DNA of 64,000 bases, taken from Gamsiella multidivaricata. Taxonomy: Eukaryota; Mortierellomycota; Mortierellomycetes; Mortierellales; Mortierellaceae. Under the pieces are notes generated by a model. The model was not told the origin of the DNA. It did not search any database and saw only the letters and a program-made list of their open reading frames with translations. The DNA is taken from contig NW_026251774.1 in NCBI RefSeq assembly GCF_025024155.1, positions 124,001-188,000 of the forward strand, given 5' to 3'. A program made the position numbers and the translations under genes. Below are positions 13,425 through 62,296 of the stretch, piece by piece; position 1 is the stretch's first letter, and each line of letters starts with the position of its first letter.

Positions 13425-16400
13425 TTATGCCCTCGTATCCTTGCCGTGCCGATTGAACAGATCCGTTAGATGGTGATGCCCTGAAGACGACTGTGAATGA
13501 GCGGGTGGATGCGAGGACGATCCCGATCGTGACTCTGACTCTGACTCTGACTCTGTGCCGGAGCCTGTTCCTGCTCCCTCGATCTCTTCCTTCACATGAA
13601 CTTGGTCCTGGTTTTCGATATCATGGCTCACGGTCCTAATCACCCCATTATCATTCTCCTGCTCAACCTCATGTATCTTGACCACGGACGACGATGGCTT
13701 ATGGTGTGCCGCAGGCGGTGGTCGCAATGTGTTCGACCCCATCATTGAAGAAATCGAGTTCCGCGATCCAGGAGTGCCAGGAGAATCCGGTCGGTTGAAT
13801 GAACCCTTCGAAGGAGAAGGAGATGAACTTGGAGAGTTTGTAGCAGGGTGGTTCTCCTTCATCGACTGCGCAATCTCCTGCTCACTCTCTGTGGAGCCTG
13901 ATCGTGGACTCATTGGCTGAGAACCCACACGACCTCCATCCCTTGCGGGGACATTGAAGCTGATACTTGGACTATCCCGGATGTTGTTGTTTGCTGTAGA
14001 GCTGCCTCCTGCATTGGGGATGTTGTTATTGTTCGACGCCAGCATGTTCCTGTTGGCTGCTGTACCTCTGGATGCCTCCTTCATCTCCTTGACCACGTCC
14101 TGGAGTGTTCTCACAGTATTGTTATTGCTGTTATTCGCACGGCTCAGATCAGGCACACCCGCGATCCCGAATCCTCCATAAGGAGCCGAACCGCCATAGC
14201 CATACGATCGCTGGTTTATAGATCTCTGATGGTCGTATCCAATCGATCTCTGATTGTCGTATCCGATTGAACGCTGGTTATCATACCCAATAGTCCTCTG
14301 CTCGCCATCAACTTCAGCAACCGATCCATTGATAGTCGGGGGCCGCAACACAATCTCGTCTCCAATGTTGATATGGGGGAGGCGTGTGACCGCATGGTTA
14401 CTGTCCTCACGTTTCCTGGACCAAGTTCGCGTGTACTTGTATTGGAGGTGGAGCAACGGCACAGTGACACCATGGATTAAGACACTCGAAAAAACCAGGA
14501 ACATCACCACAGGAAAGATCACGGCGCGCACTCGGTTCAGTTTCTCTAAATTATGAGCGTCCTCGCCAATGTGCTCCGGATGTGTCAGCATTGCGGTGAC
14601 CTTTGAGAAGAACACGGCACCGACACCAATAGGTCCGAACCATCCGGCGAAGGCCGCCTCACGATATGTCGTTAACGCTGGTATAAGCGGCTTCAGTGCT
14701 ATCACGAAGGGCAGTCGTCGGAACATCAGCACCACGACTGCAAGGATAATCATGCGCCACACAGTCAATCCCAGGGCGGGATCCCCAAAGCTGGAGAAGG
14801 GGATCGATGCTCCAATGTAGACAAAGCAAGCCAAGTTCAGCAACATATCGATGATCTCCTGAATGTGTGCCTCTGCAATCTCGTTCGAAAACCAATCACT
14901 ATCATGATAAAGTGATAAGGACACGTTATAAGATTGATTAGCGTTTTCCTTTTTCTTTTTCTAAATATCCTTGGCGCTGGAAAAGAGTAATAACCATGCA
15001 TCTCCACTTACTCCCAGGCGAAAATGTTGCCACAAATAAAGCATGCCAACAGATCGTCGGACGCCAAGATGCTGACAATACCAGCAACTGCGAGGGCCAA
15101 GGCGATCGAAAACACCAAAAAGGATTCCTTATCAATCAATTTTCTATTGCGGACGAAACAATAAAAGGAGGTTCAGTACACTGAGGTTTTTTTTTTTGCT
15201 GCAATGCGATGGGTCCGATATAGGCAAGAGATAAGTCTTGCTGTTGTACCTGTTTTTAGCTCCCTTAACGAGCTTCCTTGCCGCAAATCCGATGATACCG
15301 CCAATGATGATACTTAAAAGGATCTGGTAGGCCCAGACAAGGTAGAACCACTTGGCAATGGCTACACCAGCGGTTTGTTCGCGGAGGAGATAGAGACCCA
15401 GGAACAAGAAGGGAAGTCCCATACCATCGTTGATGCCGGATTCAGCAGAGAGAAGATAACGAATACGAGGAGGCACATGCTTCTCAGCAAAGCGACCCTT
15501 GACGACCGAGTTGGACAAGACTGGATCTGTAGGGGTGACACATGCTGCGATGACCATTGCTTCGACCTACGTTACGTTGTTAGAAGGAAAGTCTCAAATT
15601 AGATCCATTCCGCATACGATCTGATGCACACGTACAGCTGATATGTGTATTGGCTGACGCGAGATAGAGAGTATCGTGCTTACAAAGCCGAGGTTGGGAA
15701 TCAGGCCCCAGATTAACAGGGCAGACGTGCACCACATCAGGACCATGAGGGGTACGATCATCATGAAAAGTGACAGTCGTTCCTTGACAATATAGGCCCT
15801 AAGAGATTTTGAGAGCAAAGATTTGATTCCTCGGTAAGTTTTGGTAGCACACATTCATTTCTCAAGAAGAAAAGCAGGGGGAGACAACAAACAGACACGC
15901 GGATTCATCCAGCTTCCTATCCACACGACTGTAAATGGTGTGTCGAGAACAACCCAAACACACCGTGATCGGGAGGGGAACAATGCTGTGCAAGGGAGAT
16001 TGTAGTACGACAGGGTTGGGTATGTGGTACTCATGCAGACCACGCCGCCTCTTTTCTTCTTTTCCCTTCCCGGAACAAGATTATTCCCCTTTGCACCCGA
16101 ACTAGCAATGCTCACCAAAAAGTGCAGTTGATTCACTCGTAAAAGAGGCAAAGATGCCATATCCAGCAAATGGATCTCTTTGGGCTTACCTTGGTAAAGA
16201 CACTCCTGCGGCCATGACCTGGACTGCAATGACGATCCGTGTGAACTCAAGTGTGACCTGGTCAAACTCCTGCCATCCTAAGGGATCAAAGATCCCAATT
16301 GCGTAGGGCCCGATGATGATGCCGAAGACAGTCGATACAACTGCGCATGTCACACGTAGGAGAGCAGACAGAATATGGAAACATCCGAGGGCATAAGATA

Positions 16401-18506: not shown

Positions 18507-21382
18507 TCATCCTGCAAACTGGCAGCGCGTGCTGACTACCACTCCATTGACCTCTGCCTCCGCCCGAATCTCCGTCGCCCCAAAATACATTCGCAGTTCA
18601 AACACCACCTTGTGGCCTGGCTGAGCTCCTGGAATAAAAGGGAGCGGGATCAAAAAGTCACCAATCTTCTCCACCATTGGCGAATCCACATACCGGGGCA
18701 GGTTCATCGACGAACACGCAAACAGCGGCGAGTTTACTGGCTTGGGGTATTGGTATGTGATATACCGCTTCGTTATACATTCGTCCACTCCGATCTGCTG
18801 TCCTGGGGCCGCATAAACCGAGAACCGATCCCTTGCTCGAACCTGCCCCATGCGATCGCTTACCATCTTCGACATCAAATCAACATTTTCCTCGAACGCC
18901 ATCATTGAGTCGACTCCGTACCACCGACGTGCCACCCGCTGTGTGATCATCCGAGGCATCAAGCCCGCATACACTGCTCCCCGGACCACAGCCAGTTCCG
19001 CACGAGGAGGCACACCGATCAGCGGCACCCTTGATCCAAACTCAGCCATGACACGCGTGTGCAGATACGATGAACATCCGAATCCACCGACCAAAAAGAT
19101 GGCATGACATTGGAAATGTGTCTGCTGAAACTGATGTTGAATCAACCGCAATACATCGTTCACTACAGGATCAAACACCTCACGCCTCATTTCCTCCGCT
19201 GTCACCGTCAATACACCGTCCTCAAGTCCAATATCATAATCCGTCAGTTCAGCGCGGCCGGGCACCGCAGGCATGGTGAGGTACTGATCCTCCACTCCAT
19301 CGAACAGGGGCTTGACATTGTGGACAAATGTATCCATAAGTTGGACCCAATTGGCGGCCGTAAGTCCCTTCTCCTGCCACTTTGCAAACCGTTTCCTCAA
19401 TAGTGCCTCCATACGCTCGTCCAAAAAGATTGATCCGCAGCTATGCCCGCTTCCCCTGGTGACTTCCCTTAGTGTCCGGCCATTCGGTCCCACTGCAACC
19501 TCAAAGACGATCAAATCTACGGTCCCTCCACCAGCATCGCAAATCATAAATCGCTGACCATGTCCTATCGAAAACTGGTCGCACTTTTTCTCGCAATAAA
19601 GAGCAGCAGCTTCCGGCTCTGAGATCAAAAGGAGCCGGTGGGGTGGATCCAGATGTGAGATCATGCCAGCCTGGAGCGCAGCTTGACGCATCATGGCCTT
19701 GGCATTATCAGCCCACATAGCGGGCACCGAGAGACAGTACTGGATGTGTTGTTGATTGAATGACGATCCAAATCCCTTGAGTACTGTCTAATATTCGTAG
19801 CGACAGTCATTCGTGTTAGCGTAAACCATTAGCGCATACAGCACACATTAAAAATCATTAGAATAGCAAACTTTGGGTGACTTACCTGAAGAACATGTGC
19901 ATGGAAAAGGCGGAGATAGTCTGCAATGGCATCGACGACCGTAAGACCATTAGGAAGCGGTGGGTGGGGGCCAGAGGCTTCATCGAGATGTAGCTTGTAC
20001 TTTGACAGGAGAACATGATTCTTGAACGGTGGTTTAGTGATGGCTAATTTAGCTGGGTATCCCCACTCGATGATTTCTTTCGAGCCTGGACCATAAAGGT
20101 TACATGTGGGCACCTTAGGATAGCTGTGTGTTTGCTTTGGCCTATGATATGGATATCCCGTAGATTGATGCATGTTAGGTTTGTAGAGGGAAGCTGAAGA
20201 TGAAAAGCAGAAAGCAATCTGATATTTGTGTGACGCGCCTAAGAAACAACCTCATTCTTAGAATAAGCGCTCAACTGGGTCATTTAACACTCATTCTTGT
20301 GCAAACACGTACCAGCTCGACACTTCGTGCACTTCACCATCCTGTTGGAAAGCGTAAGCCATGGAAGAATAGGTTGTACCCCAGTCGATTGCCATGATAA
20401 TAGGGTATGTCTGGTTTTCGCTGCCCGGCATGACATAGGGTCGGTGGCCATATTGCTGCGATCCAGAGGTCGAGGACGAGTATGCTTGCTGTGGGGTCCA
20501 AGGGTTGGGAAGATCTGGAGATGTCGCATATGACTGCTGATACGGCTGCTGATACGGCTGCTGATACAGTAGTGGTTGGTTTGGCCCCGAAGGCGAAGGT
20601 GTAGTGGCCTGGCTTGTCAATGGCGAGGACGGCGGTACCGTATAGGGCATGGAAGGAGTCGTCGAAGGACTGTTCTGACGAGTACTCGAGTCATGTCGTG
20701 TAGCTGCCGCGTTCATCAGGTCTGGTGATGGAGCGGAGGCTGCATGAATGTTCGTGGCATGGCTTGCCAGAGGGATGTTCAGACTATTGTAAGAGGGTGG
20801 TAGTGTGCTGGTGCGATGCAACGCTGACAGGCCTTCTCCGTCGAGGTCATCTGCAACAATTCCGGTACCAGCGATGATGTCTACGTCGTCAGTCTGAGTG
20901 GTATGGGGCGCTCGCGGGTCAGTCTCCGTTGGCCGTGTATCTGGGTCAGACTCACTGAGCGAGTTCTGAGTCCTGATCAAGGGCGAATTCTCGGTCAGTT
21001 GGGGGTTAGAGGGTATTGCCGTCGGAGTCCTGGCGGGGGCGCTGGATGCAGCTGGTGAAGATTGTGGATGTGGATAGGCAGCAAGATCAACGACAGAGGT
21101 CGACTGGTTCGGGGCGTCAATTGGCAGTGGTGGCAACGGCGGGACCGCTGGGACGTCGAATTCATCGTGAGGAGAGAAACCTGATCGACTGAGTGAGCTG
21201 ACGCTGGATATGGTACGGACAGTGCCGTTGCGCGGACTGGTGCTGTGGTCCTTGTTATTGGTACTATTGAAGGTGGCATTGGAATTGGCGCCGGTAATAC
21301 CGATGCCTTTATCATTCTCTTTGTCGGCCCTGTCCTTCTTCTTGGGTGAAAATGCCTTCTTCAAGGACTTGAAGGACTGCAT
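18507..21382 (-). CDS. Hsp70-family ATPase, HSPA12-like, with long disordered N-terminus
   Basis: Three exons (21382-20313, 20141-19886, 19787-18507) splice in frame to 868 aa. Residues 1-326 are disordered, rich in S/T/P and Q, and carry YQQPYQQPYQQSY-type repeats. The actin-like ATPase fold begins near residue 327: phosphate-1 motif MAIDWGTTYSSMAYAF, phosphate-2 motif MICDAGGGTVDLIVF (Asp near 526), and the adenosine motif IFLVGGFGCSSYL. The C-terminal part does not resemble the canonical substrate-binding domain or EEVD tail of cytosolic Hsp70, which is characteristic of the HSPA12 branch. This branch is expanded in Mortierella-like fungi. The role in proteostasis is inferred; the client is unknown. 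Introns are 171 and 98 nt. Confidence 0.9.
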
Positions 21383-22633: not shown

Positions 22634-24851
22634 ATGAGCTCCATTCAGTCACGATGGTTCCATGCTTCAGTAATGAGATCGTTGTCTTTGCTAAAGAGTG
22701 CACACTGCCTCAGACCCTTCCCCTGTACAAACTCAATAGTCAACTGACTTTTCAAACTCTTGTCTATGTAGACACTCGTTAATAGCACCCTGTATATCAC
22801 AGGGGGAACTCAGCGGGATAATGCCGGAGCGACATCGATCTCAGACGAATGCCTTGCGCTTGACCTGAGCCAGCCGTGGTCAATAGAGAAACCATTGTTC
22901 ATGACTATGCCTCGTCTGAGTATGCCCCTCAGTGGACATTCTATGAACAAAGTCCCAGGATCAACGCAGCTGCTTGTTGCTGGAGGGGAATCGACTGCCA
23001 ACTTGACCATCTTCCCCATCCTGCTCTTTGAAACCTCCGGGGGCAGTATGCAGAACATCGCTGATGGCACTTGGATCTCCCCCACAAAACCTGCCAACAT
23101 TGCTGCATCTCCATATCGATTGTACCCCGCATCTATCACCACGGGCAAGGATGGAGTGCTCCTACATGGTGGCTATCCAACCACGGCGGTTGTCAATGCC
23201 ACGGTCCTTTCATCATTGGTCACACTAAAGCCTAGCAATAACTTTGCGCCCAAATACTCTGCACCTGTGTCGATGGCACTCAATTCACCAGCGCTCGCAA
23301 GACATACCATGACCCTGATGCCCGATGGGCGTGCCATCATCCTTGGTGGAACAACTTCGCAGAATGTGCTGACGAACCTCTCCATGGCCTACGTTATGGA
23401 TACTCAGGCTAGTAATGCATCGTGGAACATAGTTTCACTCTCGGGGAAGCCACCAGATCCGCGCGTGGCCTTTTCGACAGTTCTGGTCAACACAACCACG
23501 TTGCTTCTGTATGGCGGAACATCAGATTTCAAGTCAGCATTCTGGGTTACTTTCTATCTGGATCTACCCACGATGGCCTGGTCCTCACCCATGGCCCAGG
23601 GTAGGGCTCCTCGGCGATGGGGCCACACCGCAACCATGGCCGGAAGTACCATGGTAGTTGCCTTTGGTAAGCAAATAATTAACGTTATTGTATTCCTCCT
23701 AAGGTTGCGTTTCAAGATGAGTTTCTGTTGTGGCGAAAAGCAAGGTTTTGTGAAGATATAGAAAAAGCGAGGGAGTTGAAAACCAACAACAACAATACCA
23801 GACAACAGAGAGTAAGACTTTGGATTGCTTTGTCGTGCTAGGGATATTTATAAAAGCAATAACGACAAATCCCAGCAAACTAGCCGTTATTGGGATGTTT
23901 GGGCATGTGTGTATTGATAAATCATGATTGACATGAGACGTCTACGCATGATATATAAACCATTTGCCTTATTACGCCTACTCATGGCTTTTGTCATCGA
24001 TAACATTATTTTATATGATCAATGGCGAGAACAGAAAAGACATCATTTCTCACTCTTTGCTCTCCTTCACTTTCTGCCATCTAGGTCTATCCTCCCGTCA
24101 AGCACCTGATAACACAAGTGTTGTACTGCTGGACACTAAAACCAACACCTGGATTACAGAATATCGTCCACGAGCCATGTCCGCCACAAACACACCTAAC
24201 TCGGGCAACGGAAATAATGGCGGCAACAACAATAAGTCTCTAAGTATCGGAGCTGTCCTCGGACTCGCATTCCTGATTACCGCAGCCATTGTAGGAAGTG
24301 CGTTCTTCCTACTGGTGCGGCGTAAAAAGCGCAGGACACGTAACACTGTGGCCAGGGAGAATCTAGGACAGACAACCACTCGAGCAGCACTCGGGAGAGG
24401 GCGGTCAGATAGCCATTCGCGCGGAATCTTCGGACGAATATCTGAAGGGTTCAGTCTGGGCGTCCTATCGAGGAACGGTGAGGGCCATGGCCGAGGTCGC
24501 AGACCAGACTCTAGACGGTACTCTGAATTCTCTCTTCGCGCACATCCCATGACCATCATGGAACGGATCTCAGAGTTGGGTTACTCGCCCGTCAGCCTTG
24601 GATATCCCGAAAGTGTGGTTCAGATAGGGACAGGTGCGGTTTCGGTTACGAGCTATGTGTACCCGAACCAGGCATGTGCTAAGACAGAGAGATTGACCAA
24701 CGGGGATGAGGCGCATATTATCTTCCATGACCTTTCGATGCCTCAGAAGGAAGCCCTTCGGTTGACGCGGGAGCAGGAGCAACGACGGAACCAGTATTTA
24801 CAACATCAGGCGCCCAAGACAGAGCTGTTACAATTCGTCGACGACGACTGA
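22634..24851 (+). CDS. Kelch-repeat single-pass membrane protein
   Basis: The model has exons 22634-22669, 22772-23666 and 24085-24851 (introns 102 and 418 nt), total 565 aa, with all phases matching. Kelch-type blades are seen as RWFHASTLVNSTLYITGG (spanning the first junction), STQLLVAGG, GVLLHGGYPTT, HTMTLMPDGRAIILGG, FSTVLVNTTTLLLYGGT and RRWGHTATMAGSTMVVAFG. A spacer rich in N and G then leads to one membrane helix (about residues 365-388), a basic RRKKRR anchor and a cytosolic tail. This receptor-like layout is common in Mortierella-like fungi. The first exon is short and no signal peptide was found; an upstream exon ending at a good acceptor (TTTCCTCAG just before the chosen ATG) is possible. 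The ligand is unknown. Confidence 0.82.
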
Positions 24852-37433: not shown

Positions 37434-38825
37434 TCAAATGAGATCAGCGACATTCATGGGCATCTCCAAGATCTGGGTTGAGTAAAATTTCTCAATCCCC
37501 CGCAACATCCGCATGTCGTCCGCAGTAACGAAATTGATCGCCACACCCTTGCGTCCGAAACGACCTCCACGGCCGATACGATGGATGTAATTCTCCTTGC
37601 TGGTCGGCAGGTCATAGTTGATAACCAGGGAGACCTGCTGCACATCGATACCACGCGCCGGTAAATCCGTCGCAATCAGCACACGGGACCGTCCTGAGCG
37701 GAACTCCTTCATAGTGAACTCGCGCTGGGGCTGCCCCATACGTCCGTGGATCGCTGATACTATGGTCCCGCAGGCACTCAGCTTTCTCGTCAACCAATCA
37801 ACCTTTCTGCGAGCGTTGCAGAAGATGATCGCCTGGGTGATGATCAGGGCCTCGATAAGGTCGGATAGCGTGTCCAACTTCCACTCCTCTTTTTCGACAG
37901 CGATGTAAAACTGTCTGATATCCTCAAACGTCAGCCCATCCTCCTCGACCAAGATTTGGATGGGGTCCCGCATGAATTTAGTGGTGGCTTTCATCATCTC
38001 CGTGGGTGTAGTTTCAGACAGGAACATAACCTGGAGGTTACGAGGGAGTCGCCGGAAGAGATCATAGATTTGGTCCTTGAAAGCTCTCGAGCGCATCTCG
38101 TCCGCCCCAGTCAGAACAAACATCTTAATGCAATCAGTCTTGAGGGCTTCTCGGTTGATCATGTCGAGGACACGACCAAGTGTCCCAACAACAACATGAG
38201 GACCGGCCAGCATGTTATTCATAGTCTCGCGCATATCAGAGTCATCGACACAGTTATGACAATCCACTTCCATAAAGTCGCCCACTGACAGTATGTCCTT
38301 CCGAACCTGCCGCGCTGTATCGCTCATGGGAGTGACAATCAAGGCTTGCGTGTCGGTCTTTGATGCATCCAGCCTTTGTAGGACCGGTACGGTAAGCGTG
38401 CTTGTCCGTCCAAAGTTGACGGACGTCTGCGCTATCACATCATGACCTTCAATAGCTGCTCGGATGATCCGCTGTTCGGCCGGTGAAGGCTGTCCTAGAC
38501 TAATTGTTGGTCATATTTACAAAACGGATTGTTTGATAATTAGCGAAAGTCCAAAGTCTGGATTGGGCTAAACGGAAGTGACAGTAAAATATGCTTACCC
38601 ATCTGCTTGGATGCCACGTAGAAGCTGCGGCGATAAGTTCATGCTCTTATAGGGTTTGACGACCTTGTCGTAGTAGGACTATCAAGCAAGCGTTATACAT
38701 CGTCACCTCCGGTCTCTCATGATCGACGAACGACCGATGGCGCTGTGCTACTGCTACTTCTTTACCTCAAAAGAATCATCGAGCTGGTCAAGACCAGTGG
38801 TGTTGTTTTTATTGCCGGTGGTCAT
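37434..38825 (-). CDS. eIF4A-like protein A (ATP-binding half degenerate)
   Basis: Three exons (38825-38766, 38678-38599, 38499-37434; introns 87 and 99 nt) close in frame to 401 aa, the normal length of eIF4A, and align to it end to end, ending in the typical [10 protein letters not shown]. The first RecA domain has lost its catalytic signature: motif I is SVNFGRT instead of SGTGKT (Lys to Arg at residue 78), motif Ia is PMSDTA instead of PTRELA, TPGR is TLGR, DEAD is TGAD (177-180), and SAT is SET (208-210). The second RecA domain keeps [16 protein letters not shown] (329-332) and HRIGRGGR (353-360). ATP hydrolysis is not expected; RNA or eIF4G binding may persist (inference). It is the last gene of a four-copy tandem array. 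Confidence 0.9.
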
Positions 38826-39745
38826 GCTGGAGAGAGTGTTGAAGAAAGGAAGGAAATACTGAGTAGACAAAGAATAGAGTAGGGGATAAGAGGGAAAGAA
38901 TGGCGAGGGCAGACGAACAAAAAGGTGTCCTCAGCCATGTCCTACCCCTGTTCCAGCAGGTTTCCTCACTCGTTCGTTCTTTGTCTATTTGCGTCTCGGT
39001 GCTTTGCGTTGCTTGCCTCTTTGAAATTGTCCTCATGAAACCCATAGGCGTCGCTGGGCGACGTAGCATGGTGAAGCGCAAAGCCTGATGTTCCCTATAA
39101 ACAGTTATTTCTCATCTGTGCAACTGAAGATTGAAGATACGAAAAGACGGTTTATGGCGGATAGAAGGGGGCTCAGCTGCCTGCCATGGTGTGATCAACT
39201 GCTGTGCTGTTTGCTTAGGAAATCGCTGGCCTATGTGACTTAATAAAGAACAGCAGTCCCACTCTTAGTTTCTTTTCCCTTACACTCTCCTATTCCTCGT
39301 CCTCTCTTGCCCTTGCCGTTGTCTTTGCAGTTTGTACTCTTGTGCTGCACACCGTTTCATTCACATTACAATTCTTCCTTCTCGAATCTGCAGCAGAGGT
39401 CGTTTTTCGCGGTCAGTGCGCTACGAACCAACCAAGCTTCTGGGCCGACTGATCCTTCCAACGCGTCGCTGGCGGGACAATTAGCGCGCAAAAAATAAAA
39501 AATAAAGCTGTTACCGCATATGGGGCCCAAATGGATTTGAGCTTGTGGTGTCAAAATTGCACGTCCAGTCCTCTGGTTAAGCGGTGTCATTATTTACATA
39601 TAAAGGAGAGGCGGGTTCGCTACGGCTGTCCGCATAATTGGGCGAAGCAAAGCGCGAGCTCTTCTCGCGGTCTTTACTTGATGAGTAAACGCATTGTGTA
39701 AAGGTGACGAGGAAACACCCCGAAGAGCATCCTAGACAGGTATGC
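38826..39745. other. Spacer between eIF4A-like genes A and B
   Basis: About 920 nt, the longest spacer of the array. It holds the presumed promoter of gene A and the 3' flank of gene B. No further gene or helicase remnant was recognised. Confidence 0.45.
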
Positions 39746-41089
39746 CTAGTTTAAATACTTCTGGATCCTTATCAGATAGTACTCCTCAATCTCCTTGATC
39801 ATCCTAGCATCAGCACTCGTAATAAAGCAAAACACCCGGTTCCTGTACGTCCTCTGATTAATCCTCCGGATGTAATCCTCCTTCAGTGGCATATCGTAGT
39901 TGATCGTCGCCGTCACGCCCTGCTGCAGATTCAGTCGCCGGTTGTCCTCTAGATCCGTGGAAACCAAAAGTGCGGCCCATGCAGCTCGAGCCTTCTTTAG
40001 AACTAACTGCCGCTCCTCTTCTTCCATATCCCCATAAATCGCCAACGCCGTGAAGTTGTTTGCTCGCAGTTGTGCCACTAACCAATCGACCATCCTTGGA
40101 GTGCTGCAGTAAACCACCGCGTGAAGCGCCGTCATGTGGAGATTCAGCAACGTATAAAGTTTCCGTTCTTCATTCACGACATCGATATAGAAATGCTTTG
40201 TCCGCTCTAACAATACCTCGTCCCTCGAGACTAAGAACCGCACTGGATCCCTCATGCACCGGGCCACCAATTTCATCACATTCTCGGGCATGGTCGGGCA
40301 CATGAGCACGATCTGTATCCCAAGACGGAGTTTCGCGAGTAGATCGCATATTTGGTCGATCAAGAATCTTTCCAGCAGTTCGTCTGCCTCATCCAAGATC
40401 AGCATCTTGACCGAATCCGTCTTGAGTGCTCCTCGACAGATCATGTCATAAACACGGCCGGGCGTTCCAACCACCACCTGGGCCCCCTGAGCCAGATTAG
40501 CCATGCACTCGGGTATTCTGGTTCCTCCGATGCAGACCTGACACTCCACTGACATAAACTTTCCCAGCGCCTCCACGACTCTCATAGTCGCTTGTGCCAA
40601 TTCACGGGTGGGGACAATCACCAATGCCTGACATTGGGAATTGGTCAAATCGAGCTTATTGAGCATAGAAATTATGGAGGCGATGGTTTTTCCTGTTCCG
40701 GCATGGTCGTGGATAATGACATCGTGACTCTTGAGGATGGGCAAGAAGGAACGCCTCTGGGTCGCGAAGGGCTGTTCGAAGCTGGAGATAATCGGAAGTG
40801 CGGAATCCATGGTTATATCAATGACCCCAAAGATGTCACCTACATTCATTATGATTACTCTGCTTCAATACAGGGATATTTGGTCATACCCATAGGCAAG
40901 GATGCCCTGAAGGAGCTCTGGGCTGAGATTCATGTCTTCGAAGTTGTTGGCCACCATGGTCTATGGGATCATAAGGAAAAAAAAAAAACACATTAGGTCA
41001 AGCTAGCCGAGCTGCTGTCGCTGCCACCGGTTCCTTAGTCATACTTCAGTCTCATCATTCAAAGGCTGAGGTCCATCGGGGGTAGTCAT
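39746..41089 (-). CDS. eIF4A-like protein B (second RecA domain degenerate)
   Basis: Exons 41089-41045, 40960-40890 and 40781-39746 (introns 84 and 108 nt) splice in frame to 383 aa. The first RecA domain is canonical: a Q-motif-like GFEQPFATQR, motif I AGTGKT (66-71), PTRELA, GG, TPGR and DEAD (169-172). From motif III onward it degenerates: SAT is CPT (200-202), FCN is YCSTPRMVDWL, the TDVxARGID block is TDLEDNRRLN, and HRIGRxGR is RRINQRTYR (344-352). It may bind ATP but lacks the arginine finger needed for coupled hydrolysis. The second intron sits at the same site and phase as in its neighbours (after AYG, phase 2). Collinearity with eIF4A to the end argues against a hidden frameshift. 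Confidence 0.9.
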
Positions 41090-41202
41090 GGTGCAAGTGA
41101 GAGTGACAAAGAGAAGAAAAGTGAAGTGAAAGGTGAAATTGCAGGAATTCCTCCCTCAGGTGTTCAAAAGTGGCTGCGCCGCATTTTCGCGGACTAAAGT
41201 TT

Positions 41203-42552
41203 TTATTTGTTGGGAATAAAAAGGTTGGAGGCCTGTTCGTAGTAAACGCGTATATTCGCGGATAAGTTGATAAGCCGGATCGAAAAGCGCTGCTCAATGC
41301 CACCAAAGATCTTCTTGTCACCCATGGTAGCAAAATTGATCACCACGTCCTTGCGATCCGATTGGTCTCCAAGACCGATACGGTAAGTGTACTTGTGCTA
41401 GAAGGTAGGTCGTAATTGATGACCAAGGACACCTTCGGAGCGTAGTTAAGGTGAGCTAGCGCGTTCGTCGAGACCAACACTTTAAACCCACGATTGAAGA
41501 CCATCAAAGTCGTAGCCCGCATATCCCTACACATCTCACCATGGATCGCCAAAGCCTCGATCCCACTTGATTGCAGCATCTCCGCCAGCCAGTCCACGGT
41601 TCTGCGGCTATTGCAGAGGACACCCGCCTTCTCATAGACCGCTTTCCTGAGGAGCTCGCGCAGCAGTCCGAGCTTATCCTCTTCCATGCCAGCCGCCACT
41701 ACTGACCTATCCTCTGTTACCGAAATCCGAACGAGGTCTTGTATGAACTTGGTCCTCAGCTTCTCCACACCCACGGGCAAACTGGAGGACAGGAGTACAG
41801 TCTGGATGTCCTCGTGAAGTTTTTTTAAACAAACCGTGGACCTGATACCTGAACCCGTTTGCGAGTATCTCGTCCACGCCGTCCAGTACCAGCATCTTGA
41901 TGAAATCTCGATCATGTGCATCATAGAAGAGACCTCACGGGGAGTACCAGCCACCACATGGGCTGGCTGACAACATCGTTCTTGTTCGATCCTTTAATAT
42001 AAACCTGGCATCTAACACCCATGAACACGCCCAGTACCAACAACCCCTTCTGGATAAGGAGCGCCAAATCGCTCGTGGACGTGATGATCAATGCTTGCGG
42101 AACAGGATTTGGGGCATCGAGCGCCTGCAGAACCGGTATAATAAGCGCACCTGTCTGCCCAAACCTCAAGGACACTTCGGCGATCACACTTCCTCTTCGA
42201 ATAGCGGATTGAATGATCCTTTTCTCGACGTATGAGAGTGGCCCCAGTTTAGTCATTCGGATAGTGAGAGAAGATGGGCGGTACTGGGGATATTAATTCC
42301 GGGGTTCAATTGCGACCAGTCTGGTAGGCCTACCCACAGTTTTTGATACTGCGAAGCAACTCTCTTTCCAGCCTCATGCCTTCGTATTTTTCGGCAGGCA
42401 TGTCCTGATCGGACTAGAAGAAGCGGTGTCAAGAGGTGTATCGAGGATGTAAGAAACAATCCGTCAAACTTCGCCTTGGTCTCAGCGAGAGGTCTTTCGT
42501 TCTATCAGCATGAACAACTTACCACTGAACCTCGATGGCGTCTGCGACTCAT
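41203..42552 (-). pseudogene. eIF4A-like copy C, frameshifted
   Basis: The first two exons look normal: 42552-42523, and 42413-42334, which at 80 nt has the same length and phase as exon 2 of copy A (SDQDMPAEKYEGMRLEREL...KNCG). The acceptor expected before CTGGGGCC is AA instead of AG (42249-42250). In the body, alignment to eIF4A needs frame changes near 41960, near 41900, at the A-run at about 41821-41827 and near 41400. Motifs are also lost: LRFGQT for motif I, STSDLA for PTRELA, TPRE for TPGR, DGVD for DEAD, SSS for SAT, and YRIGLGDQ for HRIGRxGR. VLCNSRRTVDWL and [10 protein letters not shown] remain recognisable. It lies 113 nt upstream of copy B and 176 nt downstream of copy D. Confidence 0.88.
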
Positions 42553-42728
42553 GATTGTGAAAAGATTATAAAGATAAGATACGGATTGAAGATGTAAAAT
42601 GAGAGGGGGCCTTTGAACGCTCTTTTTTATATCCGAGTTCGTGCCCATTTTGTGGTAAAGGAAGATTCTGCTGGGGGCTACTTGACAGCTTCGTGTTTTA
42701 TTATCCCGTTCAATCATCGTAGTAAAAA

Positions 42729-44881
42729 CTAGTTGACTATGAACTCTGCAATGTTCGCCTATATTCACATAGTTAAAGATAACGTGGTGGGTCTGTTAGA
42801 ACGTGCATAAACCACATAACATCCACAAAAAGCAAGAAACTCTCCCCCCCCCCATGGACCCAGTGTCAAAAATGATGTTCCAACTTACCGGCATATCATC
42901 AATTGTCGTCCGGTAATGTTGCTGAATCGCCCTCAGAGCCTGGCCCTCGCCCTTATGCCCATCGAGCAGCGTCACCTTGGCCCCGACTCTTCCTTTCGAC
43001 CGATCGATCCATTTCACACTAACCAGTTGACAAACAGAGCAGAACAAAGGTAAGGATGTTAGGAGACTAGTTGCTTGAGCATAGCATATAAGGGGAAAAA
43101 CGAAAGGAGAAAACTTATTCTTGAGTCATATCTTGCATGCTGCTTACCGAGGAATGTAATTGCCAATGCTCGGGACCTCGAAGCTGACAACCAGTGGGAC
43201 CGCCAAGATCTCGAGATCCTTGGCGGCTTCGTCCGTCAGAATAAGATAAAGTGGCGGAGCCGAGACCCGGAACCGTCCTATGGCGGCTTTCCTCGTTGTC
43301 ATATCCATGTCTGAGTACTAAAGAGAAAAAATAAATAAAAAGTTGAAGAGCAGGTTAATATCAATAATGAGGCAAACAACCACACCTTGGAACGTGGAAA
43401 TGAAATTGCACCGGGGCAGAGAAAAGGATGTGCAGATGCGAAACATAGACTTACTAAAGGTATGGCAAATCCTTTGCGCTCACGGATCTTTCGCACCACT
43501 CGATCGACCGTCTCATCCTTGTTGCAGAATACAACCGCACGATTTGCTCCGCTATCCTCCAGCAGCTCACAGAGCAGCTCCAGTTGCCACACTTCATCGT
43601 CCACTGTCATGTACTTGAAAAACTGAAGGATGCCCTTTAATGCCAACTCGTGTCCCTTCACCAGTGCCTTGGTTGGCTGTGTCATATACTGTGCTACATG
43701 GTCCAGGACATGCGAAGGAACCTCGGTCGAGAAGAATAAGAGCTGAGGCTGATTGGGGATAAGATGAGAAGTTGAGGTCCCGAATGATGAGCATGACGAT
43801 AAGGATGACAATGATGATGTAGAGCTCTGTGATGTTGAGCCTGGGGTGCCAGGTATGGATCGTGGTCGTGCTTCGGAGGGACTGGAGCCTATAATCCGCC
43901 CGTTCAGGGCTGCTACGGCCTTTGACACTGGGGAGGTAGGTCCCGAATTTGGTGGTGAAATCATTGAATCCGCTGCTGAAGACCCCGGTACGGTACCATT
44001 GGCGGCAGGATCCCGTACCATAGAGAGCAAACTGACGGTGGCCTCCTTCAAAGGGGACGCCAGAAGAATGTCCGCGTTTTCCAGGACCATAGCCTTGAGC
44101 GCAGAAAGGCTGATCTGCTTCGATCTGATCAGGCTGAGGACCTTTCCTGGCGTTCCAATCACGACATGGGCTGCAATGACTGGTGGTGGTTCCACATGTG
44201 CGGATCCCCGGCCGTTTTTGCTGGGATGCTCCACGATATTGACCTGAGTTGAAGACATGGTTCCCAATGATAGTGTGGCGTTACTTCCATCTGCGCAAAT
44301 CAAGCACGAGATCGTTGGCATAAAGCGGGCAAGCGCCAGCAACACTCGCTGGACGTGCTGACACAAGTCGTGGTTGGAGCACAGGATGAGCAGCTGCGGA
44401 TGGATCGAGGTTGCGGGGAGGGTCAGAAAGTTTAGTAATGGGATGGCGTAGGTCAATGTTTTGGTAACCTCTGGTTTCGCCTGAGTTAGGACGTCGTGTC
44501 TAGTCATGATCATTGGGATTCCGCGTTGCTGTAGGATGGAGGGCATTTTCAGGCTAGTCAATGTGCACATAAAAGACGAAGGATATTTAGATACGTTATC
44601 GGGGTCAAATGCACGCCTTTATCCATCCGACCGCACTGATAAAAGAATGTCTTCAAAGCGAGTCCATACCCGTATGCGTAGATGCCTCGCAAGAGCTCAG
44701 GGGTCAAGCCTAATTTGCTGAAACAGTCTGTAGTCTCCATCTTCTCAACTTGAGCGGCGACCATGGGTGTAGGCGATTTGATGCTGAAGGTGGACTTTCC
44801 TGTATCCTTGCCCACTGACGGATGTAGAATTACGCCCTGCGTATTACCCCTAAGCGCTTGCTGAACAACATCAATGAGCAT
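42729..44881 (-). CDS. eIF4A-like protein D (all ATPase motifs lost, with insertions)
   Basis: Five exons (44881-44670, 44553-43455, 43317-43148, 43018-42889, 42758-42729) join in frame to 546 aa; the four introns are 116, 137, 129 and 130 nt. The eIF4A scaffold is followed from FSKLGLTPELLRGIYAYG to the C-terminal MPANIAEFIVN. Motif I is AKPEVTKT, PTRELA is CSNHDLC, TPGR is TPGK, DEAD is ENAD (229-232), SAT is STE (346-348), FCN is kept, and the TDVxARGID and HRIGRxGR blocks are replaced (TDEAAKDLEI; RVKWIDRSKGRVG). Two insertions, about 40 residues before TPGK and about 85 S/T/P/G-rich residues between ENAD and STE, lengthen it. The ATG at 44881 is the first in frame; a later one beginning MVAAQVEK is possible. 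An open frame across five exons suggests selection for a non-catalytic role. Confidence 0.85.
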
Positions 44882-45110
44882 TAATACACTATGTCTCTAC
44901 AAAAAATCAAAGAAATTTCCGCAGGGCATATCCAGCTTACAGTGTAGCGATCTTTAACGCTGGTTTGTGTTGGGATATGGAGTTCCGAGTTGCTTCTAGA
45001 TTCTGTTTGCAAGGATCGACGCTATGGAGATATGGAGGCACGGCATAAACATTGATTGCTCTGTTAAATATGCATGTGAGCAAGGTGACGTAGCAAACAT
45101 TTTAATGGGC

Positions 45111-45980
45111 TCAAGCTGGTCGCCTTACGTTCGGTACACTGCTCTTCGTCAAATACGTATCCGAGATGATGCTGCTGGCCACAGAGGATGGTCGAGAACC
45201 CTCGGTCACGTTCGGCGAGGTGGACGATCGCCAAAATGGGGGTATATTATTGTTGCTCTGACCATTCATAGCGGCGAGAATAGAGCTTTGACTGGAAGAG
45301 GCCGAGAGCATAGGCGTGGACGGACTCTGGGGAGTGCTGGGTTTGGTGATAGCAATTGGGAACTTTGTGGGCAGTTGGGTTGTCTCGACCGTGATGGTGT
45401 GCGGTACTCGCTCCGCTTCTGGTAGTTGTGGAGTCGCACTCCGCACCGAGCCGATGGTTGTGGAAGTCAGCTCTGTGATCGTCCTGAGCTCATGCTTTTC
45501 TCCTACAGGCGAATCCTGCTTCCTACGTCGGTAGGTCGATGATCCCTCGGACGAAGTGTTGTCCTCGTCAATAACCTGGTCCTGCAAGCTAGTCTGTCCT
45601 TGCTTTATAGCCTTTTGCTGCTGTTGTTGCTTTTCAGATTCACTGCCACTTCCTGCACCGCCACCCCCTGAGGCACGTTTCTGGCTCAGGATCCGGGCCA
45701 ATGCCTTGGTTTCGTCCTTGACAGTCGAGGGTTTTCGTTGCATCAGAGACCGAATGCTGTCTCGACGGGATGCTGCAGTATTCTTGTCCTTATCGTTGAC
45801 ATTTGACCATGGGTCCACATCCAGATAGTTGAGTTCCTCCTCTACGTCCTCGGCCTCCTGCTGCTCCACAAGGACGGCGATGCCCTCGCTCAGGACCTTG
45901 ACTTCGGCAGTGATCTGCTTGAGCAGCGACTGGACATGGCTCAGCGATATGGACAGTTCAGCGAGAGTTGGTTGGGACAT
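45111..45980 (-). CDS. Coiled-coil hypothetical protein
   Basis: A single exon of 289 aa. I chose the ATG at 45980 (MSQPTLAELSISL...), because the open frame upstream to 46310 is CT-rich and looks like 5' UTR. Residues 5-50 form a heptad-like coiled coil (LSHVQSLLKQITAEVKVLSE) followed by an acidic stretch and a DVDPWS motif; the rest is disordered, with S/T/P-rich segments and a short Q-run. No domain was recognised. It might be a small adaptor or scaffold subunit. It lies 229 nt upstream of eIF4A-like gene D, on the same strand; no functional link is shown. Confidence 0.65.
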   Translation of the reverse strand: MSQPTLAELSISLSHVQSLLKQITAEVKVLSEGIAVLVEQQEAEDVEEELNYLDVDPWSNVNDKDKNTAASRRDSIRSLMQRKPSTVKDETKALARILSQKRASGGGGAGSGSESEKQQQQQKAIKQGQTSLQDQVIDEDNTSSEGSSTYRRRKQDSPVGEKHELRTITELTSTTIGSVRSATPQLPEAERVPHTITVETTQLPTKFPIAITKPSTPQSPSTPMLSASSSQSSILAAMNGQSNNNIPPFWRSSTSPNVTEGSRPSSVASSIISDTYLTKSSVPNVRRPA

Positions 45981-57900: not shown

Positions 57901-60900
57901 TCAAGCAAGCGAAAAGACATTTGCAGAGTCGACCGACTTTGCTGACTGTACAGCGGAAGAATCAACCGTGGCGCCGGTATCCATCATACTGTGGTTTGAC
58001 GGCACCTTGAGTTTATACGCCACGAACGCCATACTAATTATCTTTTTGCTTGCCTCGCGGAAACCCAAAGGTGGAACCAGCTTGCCCACAGCGCCACGTT
58101 GCTCTAATAGCCGCATATTTATCCTGCTTAAGCCTTGCACGTCTTGGATAGAGGTATTTGATACTGTAAGTCTGTCATGCATCGAACTCCAATGCAGGCG
58201 CACCTGATAGCGGTCCTCTTCTTCTACAATCTGCCACATGCGAACAGACTTATCCCAACAGCCGGTTGCGAAATAGGTGCCATTTAGAGTAGCATTCCAG
58301 GTGATGCTTGTAATTGGTCCATGGAAACCTTCAACCACTGCCAAATATTGACCCGAATTCACATCCCACAGCCGCACTGTCTCATCCCGACTGCCCGAGG
58401 CGATCTGCTGGCCGCTGGGCGAATACACCACGCTCGTAACATAGGAAGTATGACCGCGCAAGGTGTGGGCTTTGGCCCAGGTCGAAGTGTCATACACGTT
58501 GATCGTGCCGTCGTCGAGACCTACTGCACAGAACTTCCCATATGGCGAATATGCGCAGGAATTCACCTTGCTGTCTTCTAAGAGGTACGGCCATTCGCCA
58601 AACTGCACGCCCGCCATCTGTGCGTTGCTTAAATTGGCCTGACGCAGCCAGATATTGCGAAGATTGACTTTTCTCAAATCTGCCCCTTGCAGCTGAGCAG
58701 AATCGAATTGGCCGCCGCTCAGGTCCGCTCCTGGAATCTGGATGCCTTTCAGGTCTGTCCCATTAAACGAGATCCCGGCTCTGACCAATATCGTGATCGC
58801 ATTCGCCGCCGCCTTGCGTACCTCTTTGTCGATCTTGGAGCATTCGATCGTTGCGAGCAGCTGCTGCTTGAAGAGAGGTTCCTGTTGGACACGCTCTGCT
58901 AAAAATTGCAGAATCGACGGCTCGTCCACATAGCTTTCCCGTGCCAAGGGCGAATCGAGCACGGCTTGTTCAATGACTCCCACGGATTCCTCTACAGCAG
59001 CCTGTTTTTCAAAGCTCATAACGGAATGGACGCTCCCTCGACACGGCAGGGCTTGAGTTGACGCCGCGCGACTCGTGCTCTCTCCGTCTCGCGGCTCAAA
59101 CACCGCTCGGGCCAAGCAGTATTCCAATAGTGATTTATGGATAAACCGGTGTTGATTGCCGCTGCGCGTCAGGGGGCACGCCTCACGCAAGAGCTGCTGC
59201 TTCTCGTTATCCCGGCTAAAGAAATCTTCTTTCCATGTCCATCGATCGCGAAAGGGCGAGTACTCGACCACCGGACTGCCCGCTTGCTCTTCGTACATCG
59301 CTACTACTAACGCTTTCAAAAAGGCAACTCCGTTCTGCGCAAATCCATCGTCGGACAAGCTCTCGAACACCTTCTTCTCTTGATAGCTCAAGTCTTTCTT
59401 CTCAACGAGCCGTTTCTTGCCTCGCTTCAACCATTGATCCACAAACTGGTTATACAACGCGACTCTCGTGATCCGGACGGCCGAGAGATTTTGTCCTGGA
59501 TCCACCATGCGCGGCAATACCTCCGTGGACAGCGTTAACATAAAGGGGTTCTTGACCAGGTCTTGCAGGCTGGGAATCAGATTAAGAGTCTTCAAGTAGT
59601 CCGTCACCTGCCAGAGCGGTCTTGTCGCGGACACATATTTCCTGATATATTCTTGAATTTGATTCATAGAGAATGGCGCAATGACCGCCTCTTGAAGTGC
59701 TGGCTCTGCTTGGTGATTGCGATCTGCTGGCCGGAACCGATCCCGATAATCGAGGCCAAGATACTGGCTGCGGCAGCTAATGACCATCTGAACGCTCCAT
59801 CCTCCCACCTGATTCAGTCCGTTGCTCGTGTACAGGTTGTGTGTCTGCTGGCTCTCATCATATCCGTCACAAATCAAGATGAATTTGCGGTGGTCTTTCA
59901 GCTCTCGGATCTGAGGCTCAGTGAACTCTGCCTTCCGTAGGTGTTTGGCGATCAGATCCTGTTCTGGCTTGTCGATTGCGGGCAAGCTGATAAAGAGCGG
60001 AATCCTGCCTTCCTTTTTCTTGTACGCATCCCACAAGCTGCACTCGAGCTGCCGGTTAAAGGTCGATTTGCCGCCACCCGAATCGCCTAACAGGAGCATC
60101 ACCTCACGGTCACTGTTCAAGAATCCCTCAACTTCTTTTGTCAAGTCGAACAGGTTGTCATCGGACGCTTGCAGGTTAGCCTTGGCTTGAGGGGGGATGT
60201 ATACGGCTTCGCCTCGTTCCTTCAATCGTTGCTTTCTCAGTCGTCTCAGATCGGCTTCAACATCGGGCTTGTTCTGGACAAGATCAAGCAATGATGGAGA
60301 CGCGACGGTTGGTAAGGCGACCTGCATCGAATGTAAGCTTCGATTATCCTTTCGGCAATCCTGATAAAGAATCCTTTTCGTCTCATCGCCATTGGATTCT
60401 AGCCCTTGCAACAATGATTCGACACCTACACCATGTATCGCATAGATCACAATAGAATACAGTAAAGCTATTAGTAACTGCCAGGCCGTGAATTCCGTAC
60501 TTCATAGTAAGGCGACAGTCTCTCACGTATCCGTTCATCATACATACCTGGCATAGCTGAACCAAATGTCGAAGCCAACTGCATAAGGACGTGAAGGATC
60601 CATTGCTTGACGAGGGCTTGCTAGCCCCACACCGCATCGTTTCGGTACATCTCGTCCAGAAACGCAACGGCGCCTTGGCGAGACTTGGTGTCCCACAGCG
60701 GAATGGCGGCAAGGTCCCCCAGGTGCTGGCATACTCCTAATTGAAAGGCTAGGTCACGCCGACAAGGCGCTTCACAGACCAGAGTCTTGAACTTGGCAAG
60801 TTGACCGTCCCGAAGCAGCGTGTCTGTCCCGCGCAGTGCTGTATACCAGGCACGTTTCTGGCTGAAGCTGAGACTGATCTTGAGAGATTCCAAGAGTCCT

Positions 60901-62296
60901 TGTCCATTCTCACCAGTGCGCTCACACCTTCATAACCAATTTTCGCTACCTGGATCACCTCTCCCAGTCCCTCTTGAAGATGTCCGAGCCCTGTGATGAA
61001 GCCGCTGACGTCCAGACCTTTTACGGCGCTAGCTAGTCCCGAGACGCCCTTCAAAACAATTCCAGTGCGCCGCATCGTTGCTTGCCAGGATGATTCGTTG
61101 TCTGGGACACACTGCAGCGCTTGGAAGGCATAGGCAGCCTGATACACCAAGTAAGGGTCGCTGCTGGCTTGAAGCCCATTCAAATAGGCAGAGAGCGGCT
61201 CGTGCAGCTCTACATGCTTTAAACCTGAGACCTTGGTATCGGCCATGGGATCCAGGACGTTTGACACTGCGAGCGTGAGACGGCAGATGTGATCTGAAGA
61301 TTGAGTGTGAGTATCCTGTAGGCGAGTGTTGAGGATACGTAAGGTCGTGACTAGGTCATCAGCGTCGAGGTAACCCGGAGAAGCGCCTCGCATCAGTTGC
61401 GCCATTCCCTCGAGAGAATGGACGTCAAGCAGGCTGAACTGTTCGATGCCATTGACAAAGAGCTTGAGCAAATGTTGAAAATTATTCTTCTCGAGAACCG
61501 GACACAGGCATACGACTTCTGCGACGGCCTTGGCATCCTTGAGCTCATCGCGAGTGAATGTCCGGACCACATCTGTCGCCAGCATCCTGAGTCTCTCCTT
61601 CTCTTCTGCATTCTTTTCTGTGGATTTCACCCAATTTTCTGTTGTTGGCTCAAAGGCATCTTCGGGCGACGGCGTCACTTGCAGAAGGCCAAGGCAGTAT
61701 GCGAGCTGAGAAGTATCACTTAATCGCTCATCTGCCTCTGGTAACACGGTCTTGACGATGGGTTGACGCATGTCATCGGGAAAGATATCCTCAGGGACCC
61801 ATGCTATGTCGCGGCAGGCGCTGTCGGTGGCAGAGGAAACTGTAGGACCTGGATCTTTTGAAGGACGCACATGGCTGTTGAAGTCAGAGGACAGTCAACA
61901 AATTGAGAAATGCGTTAGGTACGATGTACGATATAGCCGGTTAATGCGAACAAGTAAAGAGCAGGTACCTGTCACTTACCCACATTTTTCTGCCCTCTTA
62001 TAACCGACCTGCGCCATTTTGATATATCCTAAGCTCTCCAATAGGTTAGCATGCTCGAGACAGGCGCCAGCGAATCCATCGCGCAGGGCTTGATCCTCGA
62101 TGGGCTGGGGAGTTGTCAGAGTCTTTTTCGCAGTTCTTTTCATCCGGGATAACGCGGCCTCCGCATCGTCGCATAACACTAAAGCAATTGCCTGATCCTT
62201 GATTTTGCGCGCATTCTCCACGTAAACATTCACAAGCTCCAGTTCCTTTTGTGGCAAGAGAGCCTTTCGCGGTGACAAAATAGTTCTGTCAAACAT
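57901..62296 (-). pseudogene. NLR-type STAND protein: ARM-like, NACHT, pentapeptide, WD40 (two lesions)
   Basis: Exons 62296-61980, 61874-60548 and 60425-57901 (introns 105 and 122 nt) would encode about 1,389 aa. The N-terminal half is a helical ARM-like region (SAYLNGLQASSDPYLVYQAA; RAWYTALRGTD; KTLVCEAPCRRD). Exon 3 holds a NACHT NTPase with Walker A LLLGDSGGGKST and Walker B FILICDGYDE, then pentapeptide-like repeats (GADLSGGQF; GADLRKVNLRN) and about three WD40 repeats (HTLRGHTSYVTSVVYSPSG; LWDVNSG). Such proteins are proposed fungal innate sensors. Two lesions separate the halves: a 1-nt loss near 60911-60914 (the exon length is one short of its required phase) and an in-frame TAG at 60621-60623. 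The NACHT-WD40 part remains open for 849 codons. The lesions could be sequencing errors or true inactivation. The WD40 array is short for the family. Confidence 0.8.

Follow-up and report, generated by a model that had tools for sequence, protein, structure and literature searches.

eIF4A is among the most conserved enzymes of eukaryotes, and an array of eIF4A copies lacking helicase motifs raises the question of what such copies are. The array considered here belongs to Gamsiella multidivaricata (Mortierellaceae) and lies in a window of 64,000 nucleotides, the whole stretch of DNA that was analysed (contig NW_026251774.1, positions 124,001 to 188,000; G000:C144:124001-188000 in our numbering). 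A sequence-only reading of this DNA had described four head-to-tail copies derived from eIF4A. Pfam matches and homology agree: all four are on the minus strand, with DEAD and Helicase_C matched in copies A, C and D and only pieces of both in B. The proposed transcription order (D, C, B, A) has to be reversed, the minus strand giving A, B, C, D. Open multi-exon frames with GT–AG introns are present in three copies, as that reading held; these are A, C and D and not B, and a different set of motifs has been lost from each (those of lobe 1 in D, motifs V and VI in C, nearly all lost or altered in A). The copies are not all of one kind: A is old and occurs throughout the clade, C may be shared with Dissophora, D is young in part and B is dead. 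On the evidence of its sequence, copy A is best read as an eIF4A-derived pseudohelicase that has been misannotated as eIF4A or eIF4A-III.

Table 1. The eIF4A-derived copies in order of transcription, with two exons of copy A (positions in the window).
Feature	Position	Strand	Description
Copy A, full gene	42729..45980	-	Putative eIF4A-derived pseudohelicase of 823 amino acids (aa); model equals P0121; 48 family rows; fixed motif replacements
Copy A, exon 1	45129..45980	-	Predicted N-terminal helix (residues 6-49 of the model); YLDVDPWS and KDETKALARILSQK are conserved; a variable linker follows
Copy A, exon 3	43455..44553	-	Lobe 1 (Walker A ruined, ENAD for DEAD), with a Ser-rich insert separating motifs II and III, and the start of lobe 2
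Copy B	41203..42552	-	eIF4A pseudogene; frame changes in homology; AA in place of AG before exon 3
Copy C	39746..41089	-	383 aa; exons 41089-41045, 40960-40890, 40781-39746; retains Walker A, PTREL, TPGR and DEAD but not motifs V and VI
Copy D	37434..38825	-	401 aa; exons 38825-38766, 38678-38599, 38499-37434; has lost motifs I, Ia, GG, II and III but retains V and VI

Copy A had been thought to start at 44881. The gene begins at 45980, with a 284-codon N-terminal exon that lay outside the limits first drawn. It consists of six exons (45980-45129, 44860-44670, 44553-43455, 43317-43148, 43018-42889 and 42758-42729) separated by five GT–AG introns, and its translation is P0121 letter for letter; P0121 and P0001, both named Gamsiella multidivaricata, are the database proteins identical to frames in the window. 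The last exon is also homologous, so the gene is complete from end to end. P0138, an A protein of 909 aa from a cluster whose longest contig has 2967 bases, crosses four of the Gamsiella intron sites without insertion, and this fits a spliced transcript, if the gene that encodes it has introns at the same sites.

A search of 5.8 billion proteins, with 7994 candidates scored, gave 86 matches to A. The top 48 (P0121–P0168, 39 of them named) constitute the A family, all with E ≤2.9e-110; the remaining 38 are ordinary DEAD-box proteins with E values of 1.3e-53 or worse. The named A rows represent 13 genera, every one under Mortierellaceae, a family with 18 named genera in our copy of the taxonomy. 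No A row from outside Mortierellaceae was found among the 86 matches.

The motifs that define DEAD-box ATPases are replaced in this family, and the replacements are fixed (the rows include fragments, hence the varying denominators). In Walker A the first glycine is Glu in 46/46 rows and the second is Ala in 45/46 or Thr in 1/46. DEAD has become ENAD in all 48 rows, with loss of the catalytic glutamate. Both the proline and the threonine of PTREL are replaced (45/45), the first glycine of the GG motif is Asp or Glu (46/46), and the SAT motif is likewise replaced and fixed. Motif VI (HRxGRxxR) has lost its histidine in 45/45 rows and has Trp for the central arginine in 37/37, the first arginine being kept in 41/45. 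Among the sites invariant in at least seven of eight eIF4A sequences, 86 are kept in A and 87 are fixed (≥90%) to another residue. Copy A has none of the three marks of an active DEAD-box ATPase (Walker A GxGKT, the DEAD glutamate and motif VI) and would be expected to be inactive.

The altered lobe is nevertheless conserved. From LLRGIYAYG to GG, a stretch that contains the ruined ATP site, mean pairwise identity is 93 per cent (minimum 84%) among the 23 full-length A rows; the same stretch in 18 rows of ordinary eIF4A has a mean of 92 per cent and a minimum of 80 per cent. The linker and the Ser-rich insert of A are only 50 per cent identical, and the loop after GG (GG to Ib) 42 per cent. 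A frozen stretch of lobe 1 beside a variable linker, insert and loop argues for selection on the A protein sequence rather than for short time. In a tree of 59 rows the A family forms one clade (support 100/100), whose stem measures 3.96 changes per site and whose end branches measure 0.05–0.33. With 48 rows in 13 genera and 93 per cent identity in the altered lobe 1, the family appears to have been retained by selection over a long term.

A model of the fold was obtained for P0150, using 41 rows of the A family aligned with 44 of other DEAD-box proteins. It has two lobes and a mean predicted local distance difference test score (pLDDT) of 81.8. The nearest solved structures found by Foldseek are eIF4A-III and eIF4A, with TM-scores near 0.4–0.5, as the orientation of the lobes differs; in the predicted model, lobe 1 of A alone superimposes on 7ddx_B with a root mean square deviation of 2.0 Å over 210 residues. 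A would thus combine a helicase fold with the absence of the catalytic motifs, a prediction from an alignment that included ordinary helicases. The N-terminal helix is predicted by the model made from A rows alone (residues 6-49, pLDDT about 80–87), and the N-terminal 105 residues gave no relative among solved structures (best E 1.4).

By descent, A is placed inside the Mortierellaceae eIF4A genes in the 59-row tree. Elsewhere in the genome, contigs C137 and C152 each carry an eIF4A gene whose motifs are intact (67% and 66% identity to D, respectively), and contig C104 carries a FAL1 (eIF4A-III), also with its motifs intact. The shared intron seen in the sequence-only reading holds: a phase-2 intron after the Gly codon of the IYAYG block is common to A, C, D and both ordinary eIF4A genes. 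The intron preceding it is common to C, D, C137 and C152. In FAL1 the intron is apparently one base off, in phase 1 (by-eye reading). The origin from eIF4A-III that the public names imply is not favoured, as A has its intron in the eIF4A phase, not in that of FAL1, and falls within Mortierellaceae eIF4A in the tree, although the A profile against the PDB slightly favours eIF4A-III (2hyi_C, its best solved-structure match, 242.5 bits, versus 232 for eIF4A-I). Public records call these proteins eIF4A, eIF4A-I or eIF4A-III; the ATPase motifs being absent, this naming is an error carried through many records.

In eight genomes an A match and an eIF4A-like match occur on equal-sized contigs of the same species, and equal size is the sole ground for placing them together (Linnemannia exigua, L. 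zychae, Mortierella spp. AD094, GBA43 and GBAus27b, Entomortierella beljakovae, Actinomortierella wolfii and Dissophora ornata). A adjoining eIF4A is probably the ancestral gene order. The two Linnemannia eIF4A proteins apparently encoded beside A (P0238 and P0242) have kept their motifs and have a longer common branch (0.33) than other eIF4A genes. A single burst of tandem duplication as the origin of all four Gamsiella copies is unsupported, since A is far older.

Taken together, the best explanation is that a duplicated eIF4A became a fixed, family-wide, non-enzymatic two-lobed scaffold, to which we assign a probability of about 0.68. Its computed part comprises homology, motif replacement, conservation, intron sharing and the predicted two-lobed fold; we infer from sequence that A has lost its activity, and likewise that it functions as an ATP-independent scaffold or ribonucleoprotein (RNP) component. 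Early in Mortierellaceae, an eIF4A gene would have been duplicated in tandem beside the ancestor of A. Copy A would have lost its ATP-binding and hydrolysis residues, gained the N-terminal helix and linker and the Ser-rich insert, and been fixed as a new protein prior to the separation of the sampled genera. Most likely it would act as a two-lobed scaffold independent of ATP hydrolysis. A protein or RNP partner would bind to a conserved surface derived from the cleft of lobe 1 that once took up ATP and RNA; the helix would allow the protein to self-associate or dock, and the linkers would serve in regulation. The same locus would have kept producing copies: C (older), D (its 3′ half homogenized with the C152 eIF4A, its fate undecided) and B (dead).

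Several observations weigh against this explanation. The Walker A lysine and threonine are retained in all 46 A rows, so that A may still bind some nucleotide. Of the 85 rows in the alignment behind the P0150 model, 44 are ordinary DEAD-box proteins that pull the model of A toward their fold, and the P0121 model from A rows alone reached a pLDDT of 50.3 and was relied on only for the N-terminal helix. The exact origin of A among the eIF4A copies is weakly supported (85/61) because of the very long A stem.

A could instead be a natural dominant-negative or decoy form of eIF4A, as perhaps could D, occupying eIF4G or another partner without hydrolysing ATP and so tuning translation. Among the roles that the sequence-only reading had considered were dominant modulation of translation and the sequestering of eIF4G or RNA. 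We mapped five eIF4G contact residues of eIF4A (R45, D265, E268, D296 and T298), taken from PMC7470955. A keeps R45 (40/40), E268 (47/47) and an acid at D265 (46/47), and D keeps all three together with an intact set of lobe-2 motifs. Against this, the acid at the D296 site is gone in 47/47 A rows (Lys in 31), the threonine at the T298 site is present in just 16/47, and D has lost both, in a loop where the alignment is locally uncertain. According to the same paper, D296K significantly lowers eIF4G binding in human eIF4A1 (PMC7470955). With this partial loss of contacts, a classical eIF4G-bound role for A is possible but weakened, and we consider the decoy explanation unlikely.

Copy C poses a separate question. 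It keeps motifs Q, I, Ia, Ib and II, including an AGTGKT Walker A and DEAD, and lacks ARGID (motif V) and HRIGRGGR (motif VI); of the arginines of motif VI, the second and third are gone. Selection on C and D was estimated as omega (dN/dS, the ratio of non-synonymous to synonymous substitution rates) from three-sequence codon fits with C152 and C137; several of these fits reached the bounds of time or omega, and the values are rough. C has an omega of 0.13 (P 7.7e-8 versus 1), and 0.32 in lobe 1 (P 0.032), its times and silent sites being saturated; the two ordinary eIF4A genes have values of about 0.025 in the same fits. In neutral simulations (500 runs, indels ignored) a mean of 8.1 stops is expected in C and none is seen, the chance of no stop being 0.2 per cent. 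C looks constrained in both lobes.

C could be pictured as a working variant whose lobe 1 would bind ATP and RNA without hydrolysis, the motif VI arginines being absent, so that it would serve as a clamp or switch. In favour of this are its intact lobe-1 motifs, its apparent constraint and the grouping of C (93/91 in a 46-row tree) with two half-proteins from Dissophora whose Walker region, I-H-x-x-A-GTGKT, is similar. These half-proteins come from P0004 and P0005, each of which looks as if gene prediction had joined two tandem eIF4A copies into one protein. The first half of each is C-like with Walker A intact; the second is ordinary with a missing DEAD stretch in P0004, and D-like with a lost Walker A in P0005. 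C is a probable orthologue of these half-proteins. However, the grouping joins long branches and is not recovered in the larger 59-row tree, the derived residues common to C and Dissophora (14/63 and 8/30) are only modestly above the D controls (5/31 and 6/30), and the silent sites of C are saturated. The clamp or switch is, in our view, a little more doubtful even than the decoy. A split of Mortierellaceae eIF4A into two groups (86/98 and 93/80 in the 59-row tree) is largely unresolved in the 46-row tree, and no weight is placed on it.

Copy D shows the complementary pattern of loss. It reads NFGRT for Walker A, TGAD for DEAD and SET for SAT, and so lacks these three marks of an active ATPase. 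Over the whole core its omega is 0.64 (P 0.27 versus 1), indistinguishable from 1 though the frame is open. By stretch, the first 80 codons of the core give an omega of 0.14 (P 0.005, with time at its bound) and codons 80–200 give 1.00; for the 154 codons that remain beyond 200, the estimate lies at the upper bound (P 0.32). The same simulations predict a mean of 4.6 stops in D, where none is seen (no-stop chance 1.0%). D has kept its frame, yet seems to have been without clear protein constraint lately.

Silent-site matches between D and C152 increase along the three stretches, from 16/33 to 49/68 and 102/120 codons (Fisher test of first versus last, 3.6e-5), and the synonymous distance (dS) between them is 0.30 in domain 2 versus 1.21 in domain 1. 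A weaker rise is seen against C137 (10/34 to 63/121, P 0.021). The rise of silent identity to C152 along the gene suggests that the 3′ half of D was recently copied from, or to, C152, and this half looks like a recent homogenization with the C152 eIF4A. We dropped domain 2 of D as a sign of selected function, dS to C152 being low there. Long open frames matching only the helicase C-terminal half of D occur on contigs C147, C96, C99 and C60, some with equal scores across contigs and one less than 600 bases from the contig start; these are possibly subtelomeric helicases.

Copy B is a pseudogene. In B an ATG exon and a well-bordered second exon are present, and the homology switches frame at least four times. 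The tree pairs it with D (99/96) on a B branch of length 3.41, a pairing that may be a long-branch effect.

The suggestion that these are retained duplicates with a possible new role thus stands strongly for A and moderately for C, is not borne out for D and is wrong for B. That all the motif-poor copies are merely decaying is very improbable: the pseudogene B fits it, as do the values of D over its whole core and beyond codon 80, but the family-wide conservation of the altered lobe 1 refutes it for A, the omega of C makes it unlikely there, and the lack of stops in C and D and the low omega of the first 80 codons of D also count against it, although D may be decaying.

Elsewhere in the window, an open frame at 57901-60501 (-) matches NACHT, pentapeptide and WD40 domains and is perhaps an NLR-like gene; its neighbour at 60749-61894 (-), with an ARM_5 repeat match, may be part of one gene with it. 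Frames at 13425-14960 (-), 18507-19787 (-) and 22772-23761 (+) match Na/H exchanger, Hsp70 (weakly) and Kelch domains, respectively.

Searches of the open-licence PMC literature turned up one validated pseudohelicase of DEAD-box kind, Utp25 (Def) of the small-subunit (SSU) processome, and returned nothing on Mortierellaceae DEAD-box proteins and, for eIF4A with Mortierella, nothing on this subject by title. As described in PMC9539457, Utp25 resembles A in its two-lobed, DEAD-box-like predicted fold, its lost catalytic motifs, its disordered N-terminal extension and its evolutionary conservation. That paper deals with Utp25 of yeast, human and zebrafish, whereas A was found here only in Mortierellaceae, is eIF4A-derived and carries the eIF4A intron. 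The Utp25 model is not among the ten Pfam families matched by any of the 48 A rows at E 0.1, and no Utp25 profile comparison was run. A is collinear over both lobes with eIF4A (TIF1/2; eIF4A1/2), keeps 86 of 173 comparable invariant sites, has the same intron phase and, judged by equal contig sizes, occupies the same locus in eight genomes; it differs from eIF4A by fixed replacements at both glycines of Walker A, at the Asp and Glu of DEAD, at SAT and at the middle arginine of motif VI. From eIF4A-III it differs in its intron phase and tree position, and in the presence of the separate FAL1. A is of the same kind as Utp25, a helicase without its chemistry, and its line of descent is that of eIF4A.

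The finding goes beyond degenerate duplicates, one member of the array being, on this reading, a fixed, family-wide pseudohelicase made from eIF4A. At somewhat less than even odds, we propose that A founds a Mortierellaceae-restricted, eIF4A-derived family with a rebuilt lobe-1 surface, under conservation as strict as that of eIF4A, and that it acts as an ATP-independent scaffold for translation or messenger RNPs, and that its locus still yields half-disabled copies, one with lobe 1 intact and one with lobe 2 intact. The names eIF4A and eIF4A-III on A records mislead counts of initiation factors in these fungi. With the eIF4A chassis kept, the chemistry apparently lost and the altered active-site lobe frozen, A would show the conversion of an essential helicase into a non-enzyme in a case that can be dated, and the presence of the active eIF4A parent in the same genome allows the two to be compared.

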